Shown piece by piece: positions 1-8,747 of a stretch of DNA of 8,747 nucleotides. The notes under the pieces were generated by a model, which was not told where the DNA came from, searched no databases, and saw only the letters and a program-made list of their open reading frames with translations. The position numbers and the translations under genes are program-made. The stretch covers positions 1-8,747 of the forward strand of contig CACXFY010000033.1 in NCBI GenBank assembly GCA_902767005.1, in the 5' to 3' direction. Source of the DNA: an uncultured Erysipelotrichaceae bacterium. GTDB lineage: Bacteria; Bacillota_I; Bacilli_A; RF39; UBA660. The first letter of the stretch is position 1, and each line of letters starts with the position of its first letter.

Positions 1-438
1 GGAATGATTGTTGAGAATAGTGAAGATATAGATACAGCATTAAATTATTTTAAAGATAGTAATTTAGATAATATATATGTTTGTGGTCAAACTACTTTTG
101 AAGAAGATAAGTTTTTAAAACTAGTAGAAGAAATTAAAGAAAAAAGTAAATGTTTAGTAGAAGTAGATAATACTATTTGTAGTGCTACTCATGATAGACA
201 AAATGAAACTAAAGAGTTGAGTAAAAGAGTAGATTGTATGTTAATAGTTGGTGGAAAGAATAGTTCTAATACTAAGGAATTATATAATATTAGTAAAAAT
301 AATGTTATGACATATTTGATACAAGATGTTAATGATTTAAATGATTTAGATATTAATTATGAAAATATTGGTATTATGGCTGGAGCGTCTACTCCAGAAA
401 TAGTAATAGAAGAGATAGTTGACTACTTGAGTAGCTAA
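1..438 (+). CDS. ispH: 4-hydroxy-3-methylbut-2-enyl diphosphate reductase, C-terminal half (5' truncated by window edge)
   Basis: This is the last enzyme of the MEP isoprenoid pathway. It reductively dehydrates HMBPP to IPP and DMAPP with a [4Fe-4S] cluster in the cytoplasm. About 145 residues are visible against a usual length near 280-320, and the frame is open at base 1, so the N-terminal half lies upstream. The ATG at 4 is an internal Met, not a start. Counting from that Met, family motifs appear in order: GQTT near 28-31, NTICSATHDRQ near 56-66 with the third cluster-ligating Cys at 59, GGKNSSNT near 83-90 (substrate diphosphate binding), and AGASTPE near 126-132 with its conserved Ser. 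No key C-terminal residue is missing. It is on the same strand as dxs, another MEP enzyme, about 570 bases downstream. Identification is firm; only completeness is unknown. Confidence 0.93.
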   Translation, partial: GMIVENSEDIDTALNYFKDSNLDNIYVCGQTTFEEDKFLKLVEEIKEKSKCLVEVDNTICSATHDRQNETKELSKRVDCMLIVGGKNSSNTKELYNISKNNVMTYLIQDVNDLNDLDINYENIGIMAGASTPEIVIEEIVDYLSS

Positions 439-450
439 TTATCTTTTTTT
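419..450 (+). terminator. Weak candidate terminator after ispH
   Basis: CTAC-TTGA-GTAG can form a short stem at the very end of the ispH reading frame, extended imperfectly outward by A-T and G-U pairs. It is followed by ATC and a run of seven T (444-450). The stem core is only four base pairs, so termination is probably partial and the next gene may receive read-through. Confidence 0.4.
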
Positions 451-466
451 ATGTTATGGTAATAAT

Positions 467-952
467 ATGAAGAAATGGCAAAAAACATTAATAGGACTTG
501 GTATTTTTATAGCTTTATGTAGTTATAATTTAGATAATAGTTATGATACTAGTGCAGTTGAAATAGTAAATGAGGATTATTATGCTACATATAGTGATGG
601 GGCTGTCTATATTGGAGATAGGTGTTTTCTTGATGGAATCGATTGCAATGAAGGGGATATTTTAGTTGAAGATTTAAGATATAATGATGATCCTGATATG
701 AAAGTAATTAATTCTATAGATATAAAAGATAAAAATAAAAGAAATGAAATATTAGAAATATTATGTTCTTATGAAGAAGATAATCCTAGTACTTGGAATA
801 GAAGTATTGAGTCTATGAGATTAGAATGGTTAATGCATAATATTAGTTATGATTATGGATTAGAAAAAAGAAGAACTAAAGATGTAGATTTAGATAATGA
901 AGACGAAGATGAATATGATAATAAAGTACTAAGTAAGATTTTTAAATTGTAA
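467..952 (+). CDS. Small membrane-anchored or secreted protein of unknown function
   Basis: A 161-residue protein with no function I can name. Residues 1-5 are basic and about 7-19 are hydrophobic, giving a signal peptide or N-terminal anchor. Cys18 follows a Leu, which does not make a good lipobox. The rest is acidic and presumably extracytoplasmic. The most family-like part is the C-terminus: E120-W121-x2-H124-N125 followed by a DVDLD stretch at 139-143, which resembles short hypothetical proteins I recall from gut Firmicutes with an EWxxHN...VDL pattern; that link is from memory. The start is the only ATG that leaves the hydrophobic segment intact. The ribosome site is poor: GGTAAT at 458-463 is a one-mismatch form of the GGTGAT used elsewhere in the window. 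I see no convincing promoter, so it may depend on read-through from ispH. Its last codons lie inside its own terminator. Confidence 0.75.
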   Translation: MKKWQKTLIGLGIFIALCSYNLDNSYDTSAVEIVNEDYYATYSDGAVYIGDRCFLDGIDCNEGDILVEDLRYNDDPDMKVINSIDIKDKNKRNEILEILCSYEEDNPSTWNRSIESMRLEWLMHNISYDYGLEKRRTKDVDLDNEDEDEYDNKVLSKIFKL

Positions 953-969
953 TCTTACTTGTTTTTTTT
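931..969 (+). terminator. Strong intrinsic terminator overlapping the gene end
   Basis: A perfect 10-bp inverted repeat (AAGTAAGATT at 931-940 with AATCTTACTT at 951-960) is separated by a 10-base loop and followed by G and eight T. The stop codon of the upstream gene (950-952) lies at the edge of the loop and 3' arm. Confidence 0.85.
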
Positions 970-986
970 ATTTAAAATGATACAAT
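959..986 (+). promoter_or_regulatory. dxs promoter, extended -10
   Basis: TTGTTT (959-964), a 16-base spacer, then TACAAT (981-986) preceded by TG at 978-979 in the TGn extended -10 arrangement. It starts within the T-run of the preceding terminator, so dxs is likely transcribed afresh. The predicted transcript starts only about 20 bases before the dxs start codon. Confidence 0.6.
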
Positions 987-1012
987 AATTATTGTGTATT
1001 GGGGGCTATTAT

Positions 1013-2848
1013 ATGTTAAATAAAGTTAATATGCCAAGTGATGTAAAAAGATTAAATTATGCAGAAAAGAAAGAACTGGCTGATGATATAAGAGAAGAAA
1101 TATTAAATGTTGTTTCTAAAAATGGTGGACACTTAGCTTCTAACTTAGGTATTGTAGAACTTACTATTGCGCTTGTTTCTTATTTTAATGTGGAAAAAGA
1201 TAGAGTTATATTTGATGTTGGACATCAATCTTATGTATATAAATTGTTAACTGGTAGAAAAGATAGATTTAAGACTTTAAGAAAAATTAATGGATTAGCT
1301 GGATTTCCAAGAGTAGATGAAAGTAAATATGATTATTTTGATACAGGTCATTCTAGTACTTCTATTAGTGCAGCTTTAGGTATGGCTAGAGCTAGAGATT
1401 TATTGAATAAAAAATATAATGTAATTGCCGTTATTGGAGATGGGGCTTTGACTGGTGGAATGGCACTTGAAGCATTAAATGATGCTGGTATAAGTAGAAG
1501 TAGATTAATAGTAATACTTAATGATAATGAAATGAGCATTTCTAAGAATACTGGTGGTTTATCTAGATTTCTTACTAAGTTACGTACTAAAAGAGTATAT
1601 GTTGCGAGTAATAAAAAGATAAAGAAATTTGTTAATAAAATACCTCTAATTGGTAAGCGATTAAGTAAAAGAATAGGTAAGATTAAAAATGGTATTAAGG
1701 AAATGATTATTCCAAAGATGTATTTTGAAAATATTGGTTTTACTTATTTAGGACCAGTTGATGGTCATAATATTGAAGCAATGGAAGATATTTTTAAAAG
1801 AACAGAGAATATAGATGGACCGATTCTTATTCATGTTCTTACTAAAAAAGGTAAAGGTTATAGTTTTGCGGAAGAAGAACCTAATAAATATCATGCAACT
1901 GGACCATTTGATTTGAATGTAGGTAAACAAAGTAGTGGAAAATTAGATTATAGTGCTGTAATGGGTAATAAATTAGTAGAACTTGCTTCTAAAGATAAAA
2001 GAATAGTAGCTGTTACAGCGGCTATGGAAGAAGGAACTGGACTTAGTGATTTTGCTAAAAAGTATCCTAAGAGATTCTTTGATGTAGAAATAGCTGAGCA
2101 ACATGGCCTTACTATGGTAGCAGGTATGGCACGTGAGGGATTAAAGCCAGTTATTCCAATTTATTCTTCTTTTTTACAAAGAGGATATGATCAAGTAGTA
2201 CATGATATTTGTTTACAAAAACTAGGTGTAGTTATATGTGTAGATAGAGCTGGTTGTGTTGGAGCTGATGGAGAGACACATAATGGACTTCTTGATTTAA
2301 GTTATCTTAGAACAATACCTAATATGACTGTTATGGCTCCTAAGGATTTTGTAGAACTTGAAAATATGTTAGAGTTTGCATGTAAATTTGATAAGCCTAT
2401 TGCGATTAGATATCCTAGAGGTGGAGAAGGTAGTTATAAGTTTTCCAAACATAATAGAATAATATTAGGAAAGAGTGAATTATTAAAAGAAGGTACTGAT
2501 GTTACTATAGTTGGTATTGGTAAGATGACTGAGAGAGCTATGGAAGTTAGTGATTTATTAGAGAAAGACGGTATTAGTTGTGAAGTTATTAATGCTCGAT
2601 TTGCTAAACCAATTGATATAAAGACTATCTCTTCTTCTGTTTCTAAAACAGGTGTACTTATTACAATAGAAGATAATAGTATAAGTGGAGGATTTGGAGA
2701 AGGAGTTAAAGCTAATATTAGAGATGGTAAAGTACTTAGTTTTGGTTATCCAGATAAATTTATTAAACATGGAAGTGTAGCTGAAATAGAAGAAAAATAT
2801 GGACTAGATAAAGATAGTATTTATAAAAAAATAAAAGAGATTATTTAA
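1013..2848 (+). CDS. dxs: 1-deoxy-D-xylulose-5-phosphate synthase
   Basis: First MEP-pathway enzyme: thiamine-diphosphate-dependent condensation of pyruvate with glyceraldehyde 3-phosphate to DXP, in the cytoplasm. The product is 611 residues, normal for the family. Visible motifs are GGHLASNLG with His40, FDVGHQ with His71, GHSSTS near 112-116, the ThDP/metal motif G142-D-G running to LNDN at 169-172, PVDGHN, a KGKGY/AE/P/YH segment, AEQHG with the catalytic Glu at 362, and the RAG...GADGETHNG loop of the second half. A basic insert around 186-230 is where the family varies. An in-frame TTG at 992 would extend the protein by seven residues, but it lies upstream of the GGGGG ribosome site at 1001-1005, which is correctly spaced for ATG 1013, so I use 1013. 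It has its own promoter and ends in a terminator shared with the convergent deacetylase gene. Confidence 0.96.
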   Translation: MLNKVNMPSDVKRLNYAEKKELADDIREEILNVVSKNGGHLASNLGIVELTIALVSYFNVEKDRVIFDVGHQSYVYKLLTGRKDRFKTLRKINGLAGFPRVDESKYDYFDTGHSSTSISAALGMARARDLLNKKYNVIAVIGDGALTGGMALEALNDAGISRSRLIVILNDNEMSISKNTGGLSRFLTKLRTKRVYVASNKKIKKFVNKIPLIGKRLSKRIGKIKNGIKEMIIPKMYFENIGFTYLGPVDGHNIEAMEDIFKRTENIDGPILIHVLTKKGKGYSFAEEEPNKYHATGPFDLNVGKQSSGKLDYSAVMGNKLVELASKDKRIVAVTAAMEEGTGLSDFAKKYPKRFFDVEIAEQHGLTMVAGMAREGLKPVIPIYSSFLQRGYDQVVHDICLQKLGVVICVDRAGCVGADGETHNGLLDLSYLRTIPNMTVMAPKDFVELENMLEFACKFDKPIAIRYPRGGEGSYKFSKHNRIILGKSELLKEGTDVTIVGIGKMTERAMEVSDLLEKDGISCEVINARFAKPIDIKTISSSVSKTGVLITIEDNSISGGFGEGVKANIRDGKVLSFGYPDKFIKHGSVAEIEEKYGLDKDSIYKKIKEII

Positions 2849-2860
2849 TAATCTCTTTTT
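2833..2860. terminator. Bidirectional terminator shared by dxs and the sirtuin gene
   Basis: The palindrome AAAAGAGATTATT (2833-2845) / AATAATCTCTTTT (2847-2859) has an A-run on one side and a T-run on the other, so it works as a U-tract hairpin on both strands. It contains the stop codons and final coding residues of both convergent genes. Confidence 0.85.
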
Positions 2861-3572
2861 CTATTTCTTTAAAGACTTTACCAATTGAATCATATATTAC
2901 TAAATCACAAGTATTATCATATGGTGTTATTTGTTTATTTATTAGTACTAAGTGCTTTCCATGGAAATATCTTATTAAACCAGCAGCTGGATAAACATTA
3001 AGAGAAGTACCACCAATTATTAATAATTCGGCTTCAGATATTTCATTTATAGCTTTTTCTACATCTTTGTCTTTTAAGCCTTCTTCATATAAAACAACAT
3101 CTGGTTTTATAATACCATTACACTTTTTACATTTTGGTACATTTTTAGATGAGAATACGTATTTTGCATCATAAAACTTATGACAGTCCATACAATAATT
3201 TCTTTTTATTGAACCATGTAATTCTATTACATTTGATCCTACTTCTTCATCAAAGCCATCTATATTTTGGGTTATGACAGAACTTAGTAGTTTTTTGTCT
3301 TGTAGTTCTTTTAAAACGATATGTGTAATATTAGGTTTATATTCTAGTGAGTTTAATTTATCTTTATAGAACTTATAAAATTCTTTTGTATTATTTAAAA
3401 AGAAACTATGTGATAATATTTCTTCTGGTGGATAGTCATATTTTTCATTATAAAGACCATCTACTGATCTAAAATCTTTTAATCCAGATTCAGTAGAAGT
3501 ACCAGCTCCACCAAAAAATACTGTATGTTTTGATTCTTTTATCCATTTAATTAAAGTAGCTATTTTATCCAT
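2841..3572 (-). CDS. cobB: NAD-dependent protein deacylase, Sir2 family
   Basis: A sirtuin that removes acyl groups from lysines using NAD+, releasing nicotinamide and O-acyl-ADP-ribose; cytoplasmic. The 243-residue length is normal for bacterial single-domain sirtuins. Visible are the NAD-binding GAGTSTESGLKDFRS at about 22-36, TQNID at 101-105, catalytic His119 in ELHGS, four zinc Cys (127, 130, 148, 151) as two CxxC pairs, KPDVV at 156-160, GTSLNVYPAAG at 188-198, and a late INK nucleotide-contact motif. The family usually has Leu-His after TQNIDG; here it is Phe-Asp, a modest departure. The closest pattern I recall is the bacterial group containing Thermotoga Sir2. Start: ATG preceded by GGTGAT, and no longer in-frame option is supported. 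It is divergent from the kinase-like gene at 3650 and convergent with dxs, overlapping it by 8 bases. Confidence 0.94.
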   Translation of the reverse strand: MDKIATLIKWIKESKHTVFFGGAGTSTESGLKDFRSVDGLYNEKYDYPPEEILSHSFFLNNTKEFYKFYKDKLNSLEYKPNITHIVLKELQDKKLLSSVITQNIDGFDEEVGSNVIELHGSIKRNYCMDCHKFYDAKYVFSSKNVPKCKKCNGIIKPDVVLYEEGLKDKDVEKAINEISEAELLIIGGTSLNVYPAAGLIRYFHGKHLVLINKQITPYDNTCDLVIYDSIGKVFKEIEKEIIK

Positions 3573-3628: not shown

Positions 3629-3649
3629 ATGACCTCGGTTGGTGATAGT

Positions 3650-4336
3650 ATGGAAAAATTAGTGACAGATAGCGGTGTTTTATATAAAGAACATTGTGGT
3701 GATTTATATAAGGATGATTCTAAATTAGAATTAATTGATTTTGGTGAAGAAGGTAGAGTATATCGAGATGGAGATACTGCTGTTAAGATATATCATAAAT
3801 GTCCTAATAAAGACGTTTTAGATGATGAAGAAATTAGGCAATTAAGTGATATTGATACACAAAGAGTGGTATTACCTGATGAAGCTGTTAATGGTGATAA
3901 AGTTAGAGGATATACTATGCCATATATCGAAGGAGATAGTGAATCTATATTTGATATGAATAAAGATGTTTTAGTTTCTGAATTAGGATTATTAGAAGAT
4001 GATTTAAAGCTATTAGGTGAAGAAAAAGTACTTATTGGTGATTTAAGAGAAAGTAATTATTTAAGTACTGAAGATTATTTTTATTTAATAGATAGTGGTG
4101 ATTATCAAGTAATTGATAGTAAATGTTCTAAAGCCAACTTAGAAATGTTTTATGAATTTTTTATTCAAGATGTATTTGGACTATATTTATTAGATAGTGG
4201 AGATATGAGTAAAGTATTTACTATATATAGTAATATTAAAAAAGATTTTTATAATTATAATGGGGGGTTAGCAGAATATGTTAACGATACTTTTAGTGGG
4301 AGCATTCATGAAGAAGTTAAGAAGCTAGTTAAGTAA
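3650..4336 (+). CDS. Small protein-kinase-fold protein (paralogue 1)
   Basis: A 228-residue protein with remnants of a eukaryotic-like or aminoglycoside-kinase fold in the right order. A glycine-rich loop FGEEGRVYR lies at 31-39, the beta-3 motif AVKIY has Lys46, a Glu pair at 60-61 could be the helix C Glu, MPYIEG at 90-95 resembles a hinge, a catalytic-loop-like GDLRESN has Asp131 and Asn136, and DSGD at 148-151 stands where DFG would be. This is the most intact of three paralogues here, so ATP binding and phosphotransfer are possible, but the substrate is unknown. It has no signal or membrane segment, so it is probably cytoplasmic. ATG 3650 is chosen over 3629 because the promoter -10 ends at 3628 and GGTGAT (3641-3646) sits just before 3650. 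It stands alone in transcription: divergent from cobB, and the next gene has its own promoter. Confidence 0.72.
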   Translation: MEKLVTDSGVLYKEHCGDLYKDDSKLELIDFGEEGRVYRDGDTAVKIYHKCPNKDVLDDEEIRQLSDIDTQRVVLPDEAVNGDKVRGYTMPYIEGDSESIFDMNKDVLVSELGLLEDDLKLLGEEKVLIGDLRESNYLSTEDYFYLIDSGDYQVIDSKCSKANLEMFYEFFIQDVFGLYLLDSGDMSKVFTIYSNIKKDFYNYNGGLAEYVNDTFSGSIHEEVKKLVK

Positions 4337-4367: not shown

Positions 4368-4402
4368 TAATTATCGGTTGAAGAAAAACTGAGGTGACAT
4401 TT

Positions 4403-5035
4403 GTGGATAGAATAAAATCGGTTAGTAAAATATTAATTATACTAAGCGTGATGTTTATTATTATCGGTGCGGTACTACAAGTAACTGATATATTATCTAT
4501 AAAAAATATTAAAGATTTTAAATTAGATAGTTTAGCTACTAGCAGTAGTGTTGCGGTTAAGAGTAGTAGTCTTACTGATAGTGTTATAATTAATAATAAT
4601 GCCGCAGTTGGTATTATGAGAAAAGAAGTATATAAGGGTATGACTTTAGATGAAGTCGCTAATCAAATAAATAAGAGTTTAAAGAATGATATTTCTGGTA
4701 AGGGAATGGTTATTGCTTCTAAGAGTATTGAACTTGGAGTAGATCCTTTTGTTGCGACAGCTATTATATTGCATGAAACTGGATGTGGACAAAATAGTTG
4801 TAGTAAGATTGCGAGAGAGTGTTATAACTTTGGTGGTCAAAAAGGTGCTGGATGTGGTGCTTATAGAAGATATTCTTCTATAGATGAAGGATTACAAGGA
4901 ATGATTATTAACTTACATAATAACTTTTATTCTAAAGGATTAACTACTGTAGAGTCTATTGGTCCAAGATATGCAGAATCTGGTACTTGGGTTAGTAAGA
5001 TTAATTGGTATGTTAATAAAATTAAGAATGCATAA
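4403..5035 (+). CDS. Membrane-anchored glucosaminidase-like peptidoglycan hydrolase
   Basis: Likely a cell-wall hydrolase of the LytG/FlgJ glucosaminidase type, cleaving the glycan strands of peptidoglycan outside the membrane. The 210-residue product has a cytoplasmic basic N-terminus, one membrane segment at about 9-29, a Ser-rich linker near 43-60, and a lysozyme-like domain from about 80 to the end. His124-Glu125-Thr-Gly is the usual HETG/HE site, Glu125 being the probable acid, followed by YNFGG at 141-145 and a Y/S-rich EGLQGMI helix start near 162-168. Four Cys at 128, 133, 140 and 151 may form disulfides. The start is GTG at 4403, with GAGGTGA at 4391-4397 as ribosome site; an upstream in-frame GTG at 4394 lies inside that site. 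It implies the organism has a peptidoglycan wall. The exact bond cleaved is inferred from the family. Confidence 0.82.
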   Translation: MDRIKSVSKILIILSVMFIIIGAVLQVTDILSIKNIKDFKLDSLATSSSVAVKSSSLTDSVIINNNAAVGIMRKEVYKGMTLDEVANQINKSLKNDISGKGMVIASKSIELGVDPFVATAIILHETGCGQNSCSKIARECYNFGGQKGAGCGAYRRYSSIDEGLQGMIINLHNNFYSKGLTTVESIGPRYAESGTWVSKINWYVNKIKNA

Positions 5036-5110: not shown

Positions 5111-6181
5111 ATGGGTAAAGCAGCTCGTAATATAATTGCTACTACAGTGCTTGCTGGACTAGTATATGCAGGAGCAACAGGAACACTTGGACAAATAGCA
5201 CATAATCCAAATAATATATATAATGATCGTTCTTTAACAATAACTGATGAAGAAAAAGATTTATTAATTAGTAATGTAGAAAATAGTATTGGTTATGATG
5301 TAAGTAGTGAAAAAGAAGATGATTATTTATTATTGAATGCTATACTTGTGAATAATAATTTAAGTGATGAAGAAAAGATAACTTTTTTTAGATTTGGTGA
5401 TATGTTTTATGATAATCCATATTTGGATAGAGAGAAGACATATAATAATTTAAGGAAAGTAAAGATAGATTATACAAGTATGCGTGGTTTTAATGATAGA
5501 AATGTAATGGGTAATTATGATTATAAAGAGAATGTAATTAGAATATATGATAATTCTGATTCAATTATGGGACATGAAATTATTCATTGTATTTACAATA
5601 TTAAACCAAGTTTTTTAGATAAGTATTTTTCTGAGGGAATGACTGAATTATTATATAATGAATATTTTGAAGAGAATCCCTTTTTAGAAGTGAATTCATA
5701 TCCATTAGAAATAAGTGCTGTTAAGATGCTATGTGATGTATGTGGTAGTGATATAGTGTTAGAAGCTTTTTCTAAATCTAATATGAGACCTATTATTAAT
5801 GAACTTGCTAATTACAGTAGTAAGAAAGAAGCTAAGGATAAATTATATTTATTAGATGAATTAATGACTGAATATGAAGAAAAAGGTACAGTTACTCATT
5901 ATGTAGAATATGAGGAAATCTTAGATTATTTAGAGAATATTATTAGTGATAAGTATGGTACTGGAGGATTTGAACATAATAGTTTTAAATATAATAGAAA
6001 ATTATTTAGTTGTGTTTTTTCAGATAATCCTTTAGAAGATTATTTAATAACTATTGGAAATGAAGGAATAGGTGAGAAAGCATATTTTAGTGAAAAACTA
6101 AAAAATGATTATTATTATTTTGATATAGAGCCATGTAATTATACTTTTTCTATGAATAATAAGGTTTATGCAAAAAACTAG
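5111..6181 (+). CDS. Membrane-anchored zinc metallopeptidase-like protein (HExxH)
   Basis: A 356-residue protein with an N-terminal hydrophobic segment (about 7-28, rich in Ala/Gly/Thr) that serves as a signal peptide or anchor, placing the rest outside the cell. The clearest motif is H155-E-I-I-H159 in MGHEIIHCIY, and 16 residues after the second His comes S-E175-G-M-T-E179. This HExxH plus EGxxE layout is that of gluzincin-type zinc peptidases, with His155, His159 and Glu175 as likely zinc ligands and Glu156 as the general base. No other family domain is recognisable, and the C-terminal 150 residues are acidic and rich in Tyr/Asn. The start is ATG with TTTGGGGGGAT as a strong ribosome site. 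It ends in TAG only 5 bases before the -35 of the RNA gene, with no separate terminator visible. The substrate is unknown, and a binding role without catalysis cannot be excluded. Confidence 0.75.
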   Translation: MGKAARNIIATTVLAGLVYAGATGTLGQIAHNPNNIYNDRSLTITDEEKDLLISNVENSIGYDVSSEKEDDYLLLNAILVNNNLSDEEKITFFRFGDMFYDNPYLDREKTYNNLRKVKIDYTSMRGFNDRNVMGNYDYKENVIRIYDNSDSIMGHEIIHCIYNIKPSFLDKYFSEGMTELLYNEYFEENPFLEVNSYPLEISAVKMLCDVCGSDIVLEAFSKSNMRPIINELANYSSKKEAKDKLYLLDELMTEYEEKGTVTHYVEYEEILDYLENIISDKYGTGGFEHNSFKYNRKLFSCVFSDNPLEDYLITIGNEGIGEKAYFSEKLKNDYYYFDIEPCNYTFSMNNKVYAKN

Positions 6182-6185
6182 AAAA

Positions 6186-6214
6186 TTGACAAATAGTGTA
6201 AAATATAGTATAAT
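6186..6214 (+). promoter_or_regulatory. Perfect-consensus promoter of the OLE-type RNA
   Basis: TTGACA (6186-6191), spacer of exactly 17, TATAAT (6209-6214): both hexamers match sigma-A consensus fully, the only such case in the window. Transcription should start near 6221. The -35 begins 5 bases after the upstream stop codon. Confidence 0.92.
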
Positions 6215-6220
6215 TACTAT

Positions 6221-6847
6221 AGTAATTGATGGCACATTATTCTAGTCAATTACTTTGCTAGGAAGACGAGAATAAACAATCGTTAAAGGGCATATCTGTG
6301 AAACCTTTGGTGCTTGCTTCTTACGCCCAGTTTGGGGTGAGTGCTGGAGATGAAGATTTTTGGGCGACGCATAATGGCATATGTGAGCCGACCCAATTGT
6401 CGTGGAGACCTATTATTGTGGTAAGCCTATACGTGTATAACTGATGGACTTATTACGAAATGGGATTAAACCTATATTGTGGCGAAAGCTATGTGTAGTG
6501 TAGCCTGTCTTGAGTGAAAGTCTTGGGATAAATGATCTTGCTTATGATAAGAGGCCGCTTATTATAAGTATTGCGTTTTGAAATCACTTTTGCAAAAAAG
6601 TACTAATAGCGAAGTGTTGGGGAGGAAATCTCCTAGAGTGGGTGCTAATATAGGATTGCAGTGGACACTAAGTGGTAATCAAGTCGTATCATTCGGTGAC
6701 GAGATATAAACTCTTTTAAAGGGGAACCGCAATTTTGGTAACGGAATTGTAAGAGTTTGGGAAAACCTACTTGACCTAAGGTTCAAAGTTTACTATATTG
6801 CTCGCCAAGCAATTATAAGAATTAAGTAGTTTTATACTACTTTTTTT
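6221..6847 (+). ncRNA. ole: OLE (Ornate Large Extremophilic) RNA candidate
   Basis: A roughly 627-nt non-coding transcript between a perfect promoter and a U7 terminator. OLE RNAs are about 600 nt, work with the membrane protein OapA, and lie directly upstream of oapA in Bacillota, often beside isoprenoid genes; all three hold here. Two sampled 60-base rows are 43-48% GC against 23% in one coding row. Visible helices are AGTAATTGA/TCAATTACT (6221-6229 with 6246-6254), a GAAA-capped stem (6472-6498), an 11-bp stem with loop AGGCCG (6541-6568), GGAG/CTCC (6621-6633), an 8-bp helix (6708-6715 with 6751-6758) enclosing a GUAA-capped stem (6730-6749), and ATTGCT/AGCAAT (6797-6813). CTTTG 6253-6257 with CAAAG 6784-6788 could close the molecule. 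No reading frame of note is present on either strand. The name rests on size, structure and neighbour, as I cannot recall the base-by-base consensus. No group II domain V or RNase P core is seen. Confidence 0.85.
6824..6847 (+). terminator. Terminator of the OLE-type RNA
   Basis: Stem AAGTAGT (6824-6830) / ACTACTT (6836-6842), loop TTTAT, T-run 6841-6847. It separates the RNA from oapA transcriptionally, apart from read-through. Confidence 0.9.
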
Positions 6848-6849
6848 GA

Positions 6850-6858
6850 TGTTATAAT
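6850..6858 (+). promoter_or_regulatory. oapA promoter, extended -10
   Basis: TGTTATAAT, a full TGn-TATAAT extended -10, starts three bases after the OLE terminator T-run. The -35 position (TTTTAT, 6830-6835) falls inside the terminator loop and is poor. Predicted start is near 6865, leaving a leader of about 10 bases. oapA may therefore be made independently of OLE RNA. Confidence 0.6.
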
Positions 6859-6873
6859 ATAGGTGGTGATAGA

Positions 6874-7479
6874 ATGTTTTTTAAAAAGAAAAATAAGAAA
6901 CCAAGCGAATTTGAAAATTTAGTAGAACAAAGTAAGAAAAAAGAGAAGATAAAGAAAGAGACTGTTAACTATAAATGGATATTTACAATAGTAGTACTAA
7001 GTTTTGTAATATCATTTTGTCTATCTTTTATTGCTAATATAACGATTCCTAATCTTACTTTTGTTTTTGGATGCTTAATTACTTTTCTATTTATTATAAT
7101 TGGTATTATATTTGATATTATTGGAGTATCAGTAACATCTGCAGATGAAGCTGTATTTCATTCCATGAGTTCTAGAAAAGTAAAAGGAGCAAATGTTGCG
7201 GTTAAATTTAAAAAGAATGCTGATAAAGTATCAAGCTTTTGTTGTGATGTAATAGGTGATATATGTGGTGTTATATCAGGAGCTGCTGGAACTACAATAG
7301 GAGTAATATTAGTTACAGATATGCATTTTAATGTTCTACTTACTGGTCTAATTATTACAGCGGTAATTTCATCTTTAACTATAGGAGGAAAAGCTATAGG
7401 AAAGAGTTTTGCTATAAATAAGAGTGAAATTATATTATATGAGTTCTCCAAATTTATATCTAATTTTTATAAAGGTTAA
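6874..7479 (+). CDS. oapA: OLE-associated membrane protein OapA
   Basis: A 201-residue integral membrane protein, the partner that carries OLE RNA to the cell membrane; OLE/OapA complexes are linked in Bacillus halodurans to ethanol, cold and Mg2+ stress responses. Residues 1-32 are strongly basic and probably cytoplasmic, suited to RNA contact. Four hydrophobic segments follow at about 35-56, 61-88, 130-150 and 153-172. Family-like marks are FDIIGVSVTSADEAVFHSM at 80-98, a basic KVKGANVAVKFKKNAD stretch at 102-117, and CDVIGDICGVISGAAG at 124-139 containing the DxxxD motif (Asp125, Asp129). Length fits the family (about 180-200). Start: ATG after AGGTGGTGAT, with no longer option. It sits 26 bases after the OLE terminator, the expected position. 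The family relation is from recalled pattern, and relatives are sometimes labelled as CorB/DUF21-like transporters. Confidence 0.88.
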   Translation: MFFKKKNKKPSEFENLVEQSKKKEKIKKETVNYKWIFTIVVLSFVISFCLSFIANITIPNLTFVFGCLITFLFIIIGIIFDIIGVSVTSADEAVFHSMSSRKVKGANVAVKFKKNADKVSSFCCDVIGDICGVISGAAGTTIGVILVTDMHFNVLLTGLIITAVISSLTIGGKAIGKSFAINKSEIILYEFSKFISNFYKG

Positions 7480-7490
7480 AATTAGTTTTA

Positions 7491-7519
7491 TTGCAAAAAG
7501 CCTTCATTTGTGGTATAAT
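7491..7519 (+). promoter_or_regulatory. Promoter of the second kinase-like gene, inside a hairpin
   Basis: TTGCAA (7491-7496), spacer of 17, TATAAT (7514-7519) with TG at 7511-7512 as an extended -10. The -10 straddles the apex of the inverted repeat at 7495-7545. Transcription should begin near 7526, so the RNA would contain only the 3' arm and leave the GGAGG ribosome site free. Confidence 0.8.
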
Positions 7520-7545
7520 ATGTACCACATATGGAGGTCTTTTTT
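7495..7545 (+). terminator. Long hairpin terminator after oapA that also hides the next ribosome site
   Basis: Bases 7500-7515 pair with 7523-7538: 16 positions with one T-T mismatch and two G-U pairs, around a 7-base loop. A-run 7495-7499 faces the T-run 7540-7545 with one C bulged. On RNA coming from oapA this is a strong U-tract terminator. Its 3' arm includes GGAGG (7533-7537), the ribosome site of the gene starting at 7546. Confidence 0.82.
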
Positions 7546-8208
7546 ATGGCTTATACTTTGAATAAAAGAAATGATATTATTTCTCACAAAAAATTATACT
7601 ATTTATCAAAGAGTGATACAGGTACGGTATATCGTTATAATGGAAAAGCTATACATATATTTCCAGATAATGTCGATGGTGTTTTTTCTGAAGAAGAGGG
7701 TTTATATTTAACTAATTTAGATACACATCGTATTTTACTTCCAGATGATATTTTATATAAGAATAAGCATATGGTTGGATTTACTACTACGTTACCTAAA
7801 AAGAATAGATCACAAAAATTGATTAATAGCGATAAAACTGATTTTTTATATAGTTTATATTTATTAGAAGAAGATGTAGATGTATTATCTAAACATAGAG
7901 TATTAATGAGTGGTTTAGTTACAGATAAGAGTTTATATAATGGAGATTTATATTTATTAGATCCTTCTAAATATGGAAGAATATCTATGGGAGAAGATAC
8001 TATACTTAAACTTAATTTATATCAATTACATTTATTAATATCTAAATTATTAATGACAGAGTTTAAGAAGAATAATAGTTCCTATAATGATTTACGTGGT
8101 GTAGAGGAATTATTACAATTAAGAGAACAAGACGAGTATCCTAGTAAGTTCTTTAATAATATTTTAGAAGATAGAGAAAAAGTAAAATCATTAGTTAGAA
8201 AAGTATAA
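7546..8208 (+). CDS. Small kinase-fold protein, probably a pseudokinase (paralogue 2)
   Basis: A 220-residue paralogue of the protein at 3650. Shared landmarks in order are the SDTGTVYR loop at 23-30, AIHIF at 35-39, an E-E-E run at 49-51, LDTHRILLPDDIL at 58-70 (compare DTQRVVLPDE in paralogue 1), a YLLEEDV helix near 105-111, and LLDPSKY at 137-143 in the DFG position. Key catalytic groups are missing: the beta-3 Lys is replaced by His37, no HRD or DxxxxN loop is present (SGLVTDKSLYN instead), and the metal-binding triplet is DPS. It is therefore more likely a binding or regulatory protein than an enzyme. ATG 7546 is used because GGAGG at 7533-7537 is correctly spaced and an upstream in-frame ATG at 7531 overlaps that site. 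It is followed 18 bases later by paralogue 3, likely one transcript. Confidence 0.72.
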   Translation: MAYTLNKRNDIISHKKLYYLSKSDTGTVYRYNGKAIHIFPDNVDGVFSEEEGLYLTNLDTHRILLPDDILYKNKHMVGFTTTLPKKNRSQKLINSDKTDFLYSLYLLEEDVDVLSKHRVLMSGLVTDKSLYNGDLYLLDPSKYGRISMGEDTILKLNLYQLHLLISKLLMTEFKKNNSSYNDLRGVEELLQLREQDEYPSKFFNNILEDREKVKSLVRKV

Positions 8209-8226
8209 GATATTGGGGTTGGTTGT

Positions 8227-8747
8227 ATGAAAATTAGATTAGGTAAAAAAATATTTGAATTTAATGATATTCAATTAGATAAAATGTATATTGATGAAGG
8301 TATGGAAGGTACTATTTACAGACTCGGAGAAGATGCTTTAAAAATATATAGTAAATATCCTGCTAAAGATAGATTAAACGAAGAAGAAGCTTTAAAACTT
8401 AGTAAGATAGTTACAGAGAGATTCTTATTACCAAAAAAATTAATATATGATGAAGATAATAATTTTATTGGATATAGTACAAAATTTATAGAAGATTATG
8501 ATTTTAAAAATGTTAGATATTTACCAATGAATGAATTTTGTAGTGAATTAGATATTTTATATAATGAATTAAAATCACTAAATGATAATTTAGTAGATGT
8601 AGAAGATTATTCTTTATATAATGCTATTTATAATGGAGAAATATATATAGTTGATCCAGGTAGTTATAGATTTGTAAAAGATGAAGGCTATTTACATAAA
8701 GATAATAAATATAAGTTAAATGAGTTTATTATTTGGTACTTATTACC
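8227..8747 (+). CDS. Small kinase-fold protein (paralogue 3), 3' end cut by window edge
   Basis: 173 codons are visible and open to the last base. It has the same order of landmarks as the other two: EGMEGTIYR loop at 24-32, ALKIY with Lys39 at 37-41, NEEEALKL at 51-58, TERFLLPKKLIY at 63-74, YSTKFIE hinge-like at 83-89, and IVDPGSYR at 141-148 in place of DFG. As in paralogue 2, the catalytic-loop segment (VDVEDYSLYN) lacks HRD or a DxxxxN arrangement, although the beta-3 Lys is kept. Nucleotide binding is possible; phosphotransfer is doubtful. ATG 8227 follows TATTGGGGTTGG, a G-rich ribosome site, and lies 18 bases after the stop of paralogue 2 with no terminator or clear promoter in between, so the two form an operon. 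The missing C-terminus is probably about 40-60 residues, judging by its relatives. Confidence 0.7.
   Translation, partial: MKIRLGKKIFEFNDIQLDKMYIDEGMEGTIYRLGEDALKIYSKYPAKDRLNEEEALKLSKIVTERFLLPKKLIYDEDNNFIGYSTKFIEDYDFKNVRYLPMNEFCSELDILYNELKSLNDNLVDVEDYSLYNAIYNGEIYIVDPGSYRFVKDEGYLHKDNKYKLNEFIIWYLL

Follow-up and report, generated by a model that had tools for sequence, protein, structure and literature searches.

An OLE RNA gene with its OapA partner in an uncultured lineage of gut-type Bacilli

The stretch of DNA analyzed here, a window of 8747 nt, very probably carries a complete OLE ribonucleoprotein locus of uncultured gut-type Bacilli that is maintained by selection, and this confidence covers both the identity of the locus and the selection on it. 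Our computations show an ole gene with all major helices, located behind its own perfect-consensus promoter and followed by oapA. OLE RNAs are abundant, membrane-bound transcripts of ~600 nt that OapA binds 2:1; they are among the largest and least understood bacterial RNAs, and their function has been an open question for nearly 20 years. Natural variation in this clade takes several forms: full-length OLE occurs in genomes with no match for OapC or MpfA, other genomes have neither OLE nor OapA, the dimer loop switches from GGCC to CGCG in a pair of loci, a near-perfect promoter is retained across the sampled loci, and there may be an additional partner. Comparison of these variants, and their transplantation into Halalkalibacterium halodurans, can test partner needs and the dimer model.

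An earlier note on this DNA had stressed OLE in an apparently non-extremophile Bacillota-like genome. In gut Bacillota of this kind OLE is not new: variants from the uncultured gut clades RF39 and TANB77 were published in 2024, as were gut OLE RNAs without OapB and OapC, two proteins that are largely missing from these clades in the part of that survey drawn on here (PMC11332333). In the literature on OLE that we consulted, we did not come across the consensus promoter kept in place, the switch to CGCG, the kinase-fold neighbor specific to this lineage or the miniature OLE described below.

Structure, promoter and conservation of the OLE RNA

The Rfam covariance search of the window returned a match to RF01071 (OLE) at positions 6213–6824 of the forward strand, the strand of all features given here, with 384.4 bits and an E-value of 2.9e-110 over model positions 1–616 of 616, where the gathering score of the family is 50 bits. 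No other Rfam family matched the window at E ≤ 1, and this includes ROOL and GOLLD. The earlier note had predicted a structured, non-coding OLE RNA of ~627 nt, richer in G+C than its surroundings and directly 5′ of an OapA-like gene. Its coordinates, size, order and motifs were right, the checks that it proposed for the RNA came out in its favor, with a full-length plus-strand hit to the OLE model and no competing class of large RNA, and the G+C content is 0.39 within 6213–6824 against about 0.23–0.27 close by on both sides. We could place 155 of the 159 model pairs in the window RNA, and 140 of these 155 are standard pairs.

With helix names assigned by order along the Rfam model, the gene is complete and includes P4a, P5, P6, P7, P8, P9 and the 3′ domain. 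The hairpin that we take as P4a on the basis of model pairing and loop (6265–6284) carries a UAAA loop (6273–6276) that is invariant in all 58 OLE sequences compared; P4a is the reported OapA-binding region, and its A-rich loop forms dimer bridge B1 according to the parts of the two reports used here (PMC12265935, PMC12286853). The 5′ strand of the k-turn in J4a/5 (6296–6301; C6296, U6299, G6300 and A6301) and the GAGA of J6/7 (6405–6408), its second strand in the cryo-EM reading, correspond to C84, U87, G88, A89 and G193–A196 of the window RNA, and all of these positions are likewise invariant (58/58). The location of the k-turn follows published descriptions consulted in part (PMC9723947, PMC12286853), and the J6/7 partner strand follows the latter. 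P7 (6409–6464) has 15 standard pairs out of 17, with double-sided changes in 13, while P8 (6472–6498) has 11 out of 13, with 83.4% of cells paired. Relative to the Rfam model, the window RNA is without a small hairpin at about 424–435 and has a 12-nt insertion in the P7 loop. Loop L9.3 contains the palindrome GGCC (6553–6556), assigned to kissing-loop bridge B3 of the OLE dimer in the cryo-EM paper, where GGCC, GAUC and AGCU appear as L9.3 palindromes in the part drawn on here (PMC12286853). GGCC is found in 54 of the 58 sequences. Two related loci, L032 and L043, have CGCG instead, and another two that are related, L061 and L062, have neither; judged from the letters, CGCG would be a further self-complementary switch.

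The alignment used for these counts has 58 rows, the window and 57 loci for which we required an nhmmer E-value below 1e-60 and more than 540 nt; four of the 61 loci with an nhmmer match hold cut or partial OLE sequences and were excluded. Rows were aligned by MAFFT without structure, and the pairs were taken from Rfam's model. Double-sided changes occur at 100 of the 155 pairs, with 956 double-changed cells compared with 271 in shuffles, and 88.5% of cells are paired versus 78.3% in shuffles and 38.8–46.7% with slid partners. None of 500 shuffles was as high on any of five covariation measures. Support is weakest for the helix at columns 366–372, with 55.6% of cells paired, and for the outer pairs of the helix closing the 3′ domain. 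Kinship among the loci inflates covariation counts, yet the slid control, in which kinship is kept, fails.

The ole promoter (6186–6214) consists of TTGACA (6186–6191), a 17-nt spacer and TATAAT (6209–6214), matching the sigma-70-type consensus at 12 of 12 positions, and transcription is expected to start near 6221. It is the sole 12/12 site in a scan of 5900–8747, a region where 24 promoter-like sites were found versus 22.1 expected by chance and where no terminator-like site was found. Separate promoters before oapA and before the gene at 7531 were considered and rejected, as the sites there reach only 10/12, the chance level. For comparison across loci we took the first CTAGT motif as anchor in 57 of the 58 sequences, all except the truncated L030. 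Within the 100 nt upstream of this motif, the best site scores 12/12 in 46 sequences and 11/12 in the other 11; in a shuffle control of 1140 stretches, 11/12 was reached 11 times and 12/12 never. The distance from promoter to CTAGT is 23–31 nt in 55 of the 57, and an earlier CTAGT served as anchor in L021 and L041. OLE of H. halodurans has its own promoter and is among the most abundant transcripts, as described in the part of the source cited (PMC9723947), and the locus in the window is probably strongly transcribed as well. Reading the RNA as a non-functional relic or as another large RNA class (ROOL, GOLLD) is hardly conceivable and, as far as sequence can reach, already refuted, with RF01071 the only Rfam match at E ≤ 1 and with covariation, invariant loops, an intact promoter and an intact oapA all speaking against it.

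OapA and its association with OLE

The oapA gene (6874–7479) encodes a predicted membrane protein of 201 amino acids, the partner of OLE RNA, and its open reading frame begins 49 nt downstream of the OLE match. The protein contains ADEAVFHSM at residues 90–98 and DVIGD at residues 125–129, of which H96-S97-M98 and D125, G128 and D129 are invariant in 50 of 50 aligned relatives (the window and 49 of the 62 loci). Pfam CNNM matches 38 of these 50 at E ≤ 0.01; for the window protein the match has an E-value of 0.0026 and 17.9 bits, below the cut-off of 28.4. No curated OapA model was among the Pfam or NCBIfam matches, so motif, fold and linkage carry the assignment.

The AlphaFold2 model of the protein (mean pLDDT 82.6) has long helices at residues 33–57, 63–89, 116–150 and 154–182, in agreement with the four-helix protein described in the earlier note. 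Its best four PDB matches by Foldseek are all CNNM proteins, namely two MtCorB chains, the MtCorB R235L mutant and the CorC transmembrane domain, with probabilities of 0.97–1.00 and E-values of only 3e-3 to 0.9. A sequence search of the PDB with the OapA profile gave no match at E ≤ 1; since neither this search nor the one with the kinase profile described below was significant, the folds decided. In contrast to the CNNM/CorB/CorC (MpfA) Mg2+ transporters, the protein has DxxxD, shows no CBS or CorC_HlyC domain match and is much shorter at 201 amino acids. Full MpfA proteins are far longer than that. As a group, OapA proteins are also set apart by lacking a proline that CNNM domains typically have. 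H. halodurans OapA has been placed in the CNNM family, with DxxxD separating OapA from CNNM in the part of the survey drawn on here (PMC11332333). The identification of the 201-residue protein as OapA, a four-helix CNNM-like membrane protein, is supported by its modeled fold together with its motifs.

The OapA relationship is borne out by the invariant DxxxD (50/50), by the CNNM-like fold and by close co-occurrence with OLE. Among 62 loci chosen by likeness to the OapA of the window, 61 have OLE 5′ of the OapA relative, at a distance of at most 300 nt in 54 and a larger one in seven. The exception, L022, showed no OLE by nhmmer or by the covariance model in the 760 nt of contig 5′ of oapA; we considered a contig end as the cause and rejected it, as 760 nt should have held OLE and the covariance search was negative. 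A second comparison covered 98 genomes from the family that includes G001, the source of locus L001; the OLE of L001 is 95% identical to that of the window. OLE and OapA are each found in 65 of these genomes, with both in 63, neither in 31, OLE only in two and OapA only in two (Fisher p 8e-21, a value inflated by kinship of the genomes). OLE was found in 119 of 193 genomes of the order to which G001 belongs. Of the four discordant family genomes, three (G108, G110 and G043) have a contig end at the expected position of the partner: oapA is at the contig end in G108 and G110, with a cut OLE visible at that end in G108, and in G043 OLE is 117 nt from the end where oapA would come. In G058 (L081) OLE lies in mid-contig and OapA was not found, and in G028 (L082/L083) the two are on separate contigs. 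Besides its full OLE, genome G004 has another OLE-like match where a contig ends (L077:1956–2424) with a poorly matching 5′ part, possibly a contamination of the metagenome-assembled genome.

The window shares with H. halodurans OLE/OapA the main helices, the P4a loop, the k-turn residues, the L9.3 palindrome, the ole gene's own promoter and oapA directly 3′. By analogy with the H. halodurans literature and the cryo-EM structures, we lean towards a mode of action in which ole would be transcribed from about 6221, the RNA would be anchored to the membrane by OapA at P2/P4a and dimerize via L4 and the L9.3 palindrome, and OLE with OapA would form a particle that responds to stress and has to do with the balance of divalent metal (Mg2+). 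In one sub-lineage, the kinase-fold gene behind oapA would be a candidate accessory factor. The host bacterium is probably gut-dwelling.

Partner proteins and size classes

Presence and absence of partner proteins were read from relatives, mostly metagenome-assembled genomes of untold completeness. Unlike the H. halodurans OLE ribonucleoprotein, the relatives of the window have no L7Ae match (the OapC family; 0 of 25 related genomes, with a positive B. subtilis control). PF00467 (KOW) matches one to three times per genome, for the most part in reading frames about as long as L24 or NusG, and provides no firm test for OapB. The k-turn positions are invariant in all 58 OLE sequences despite the lack of an L7Ae match, which fits the cryo-EM observation, in the part of the paper used here, that the OLE k-turn forms without protein (PMC12286853). 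Judged from these gene contents, the OLE of this lineage appears to work without an L7Ae-type OapC. Spo0A_C was found in 23 of the 25 related genomes, in line with the correlation of OLE with sporulation that has reportedly been published.

CorC_HlyC, the domain used to detect MpfA, matched in none of the 25 related genomes and in none of the 98 family genomes. Replacement of OLE by MpfA is said to have been proposed from an anticorrelation of the two, and we considered whether MpfA stands in for OLE where OLE is missing; with matches absent even in relatives without OLE, such a replacement is not seen inside the family. Because 31 of the 98 genomes are without OLE and OapA and none has MpfA, up to a third of the family would do without the function or replace it by other means, although assembly gaps may account for part of the 31. 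Since the relatives are without an MpfA-type exporter, OLE–OapA may be the sole CNNM-kind device of the cell.

The best OLE match is at least 540 nt long in 45 of the 65 OLE-bearing family genomes and 381–536 nt in the other 20. The published ‘full-length’ class begins at 390 bits with its authors' own model, whereas the window RNA reaches 384.4 bits by the Rfam model and has P7, P8 and P9. It differs from the published RF39 variant 2, which is without P7 and P8 in the part of the survey drawn on here (PMC11332333). The window RNA has both helices; it probably comes from the same wide group of gut Bacilli as variant 2, and no OapC was found in its relatives. The OLE size classes and the survey suggest that the window belongs to RF39.

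Two much shorter OLE-like matches, which we refer to as mini-OLE, were found immediately upstream of oapA in a pair of related genomes: L076:1663–2043 in G059 (381 nt, 134 bits) and L084:1669–2046 in G127 (378 nt, 139 bits). These scores are below the lowest cut-off of the 2024 survey, 235 bits with a different model. The two sequences are identical at 346 of 384 columns, which leaves little variation to judge by; in their joint fold, 89 pairs are unchanged, three changed on one side and none broken. They are without P5–P8 and most of P9. What they keep is the A-rich P4a loop, the 3′ domain and a short P9 hairpin that bears the palindrome UGAUCA. If real, mini-OLE shows which part of OLE is needed by OapA.

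Kinase-fold genes and other neighbors

A gene directly 3′ of oapA (7531–8208) encodes a kinase-fold protein that is a pseudokinase by motif, with the beta-3 Lys changed to His and the catalytic-loop Asp and Asn changed to Gly and Lys. Its structure model matches protein kinases (PknI, JAK, Src and others); it has the fold in common with them, but the HRD motif is absent from the kinase-fold proteins and the 7531 copy has no catalytic residues. Two further members of the same family keep the positions of the Lys, the catalytic Asp, the Asn and the metal-binding Asp: one at 8227–8745, open at the window end, whose counterpart in L001 is complete (11369–12031), and one 5′ of ole at 3629–4336, a position where only L001 of the 62 loci has a family member. 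The description of these genes in the earlier note as degenerate kinases is therefore correct as to the kinase fold, with one family of three, while only the 7531 copy is clearly degenerate by motif. No Pfam kinase family matched any of 42 family members, and no NCBIfam kinase exceeded its cut-off for the three window proteins, the best being a 12.7-bit Bud32 match. Nothing was significant in the PDB sequence search with the kinase profile (best E-value 0.06, Bud32-type kinases). PADLOC made no convincing defense assignment, giving one 18.7-bit match to the 3629 protein and cross-matches of the ABC-F protein described below. A search of a protein database with the family profile gave at least 12 matches and was not used for frequency.

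The recurrent neighborhood across loci has the order glucosaminidase, sometimes an HExxH protein, ole, oapA, one to three kinase-fold genes and an ABC-F type gene. In the window, a glucosaminidase-domain protein (4394–5035; PF01832, E-value 1.8e-7, 32.3 bits against a cut-off of 30.2) and an HExxH protein (5111–6181; no Pfam or NCBIfam family over cut-off) precede ole, each with a hydrophobic N-terminal stretch that was recognized by eye, as was the HExxH. Relatives of these two lie within 5 kb 5′ of OLE on the same strand in 35 and 20, respectively, of 52 testable loci. The recurrent gene that comes next, after oapA or the kinase-fold genes, encodes an ABC-F type ATPase and is present in 38 of the 62 loci; the example at L006:10669–12249 matches NCBIfam ‘ABC-F family ATPase’ with 673.7 bits, below the cut-off of 762.

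We consider it likely that the kinase-fold genes are a tandem family unrelated to OLE that changes quickly and happens to occupy a space prone to insertions, the one between oapA and the ABC-F gene. Their copy number is variable, and on the OLE tree (a quick search with 58 rows) the kinase-neighbor label needs nine changes, of which eight are forced by well-supported branches, pointing to repeated gain or loss. A decayed copy is seen in L049 (G080). In G092 (L063:3787–5225) glucosaminidase and kinase-fold matches lie 77 nt apart while OLE and OapA were not found in the genome, an apparent loss of ole–oapA with the kinase gene kept and a possible natural deletion. Relatives of the family at E ≤ 1e-10 occur in 65 of the 193 order genomes, mostly away from OLE. 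Genome G066 (L067, contig C11), which has no OLE match, contains a tandem array of five family matches. Against this reading stands the retention of one exact place: a kinase-fold gene follows oapA directly on the same strand, with a gap of −28 to 86 nt, in 39 of the 62 loci and in the window (L056 has too little sequence to judge), though these loci were chosen by likeness of OapA, and shared descent accounts for part of the retention.

That the gene behind oapA is instead a working part of the OLE particle in this lineage, filling the place of OapB and OapC, for example as a nucleotide- or phosphorylation-dependent switch, seems unlikely to us. Its position next to oapA would speak for it, with relatives at this place down to about 61% OapA identity, as would the kinase fold and the finding that, among the loci with the kinase-fold gene directly behind oapA, all 32 in which an ABC-F relative was also found have their one to three 3′ kinase-fold copies between oapA and the ABC-F gene. 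In L006, L007, L010, L012 and L014, however, the ABC-F gene comes directly after oapA, and the 62 loci were picked by OapA likeness. In the draws by taxonomy the association is limited to a clade, with a kinase-fold gene at the OLE locus in six of 65 OLE-bearing family genomes, plus the decayed copy in G080. Of 119 OLE-bearing order genomes, seven have a same-strand copy no more than 4 kb 3′ of OLE (by coordinates; one of the seven is G185, the source of L053, where the distance behind oapA is 1 kb). The tree changes, the decay, the gene kept without ole–oapA in G092 and the many relatives elsewhere, including the five-copy array in the OLE-less G066, count against a working part in the same way. 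The 5′ glucosaminidase gene is kept about equally often (35/52), so position alone says little on a partnership of the kinase gene with OLE.

We also considered and rejected the gene as OLE-specific, a view suggested by nearly all strong matches lying at OLE loci; that count is circular because the profile was built from those loci, and the family and order draws show a clade-limited gene that is mostly elsewhere. The kinase context proposed in the earlier note as an extension of the known contexts of OLE thus stands for one lineage only (seven of 119 OLE-bearing order genomes), where any function would be a candidate one. As judged from gene content and position, the kinase-fold gene is at most a lineage-specific candidate partner or accessory factor. 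A more specific version, in which an OLE particle without OapC, and without OapB as reported for such clades, took a co-encoded kinase-fold protein as its third core member, represented in the window by a pseudokinase and intact-looking paralogs, strikes us as quite improbable. OLE has reportedly been likened in function to the eukaryotic TOR complexes by its discoverers; a kinase-fold core member, if true, would tie OLE to a real kinase fold and provide a handle on its function.

Isoprenoid genes are said to have been named among OLE neighbors. We did not count the closeness of ispH and dxs to OLE in the window as evidence of OLE context, since among the 62 loci the dxs link is common to L001 only. 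Positions 1–3572 of the window hold the end of ispH, an unknown ORF, dxs and a sir2 deacylase gene, all 5′ of the OLE locus.
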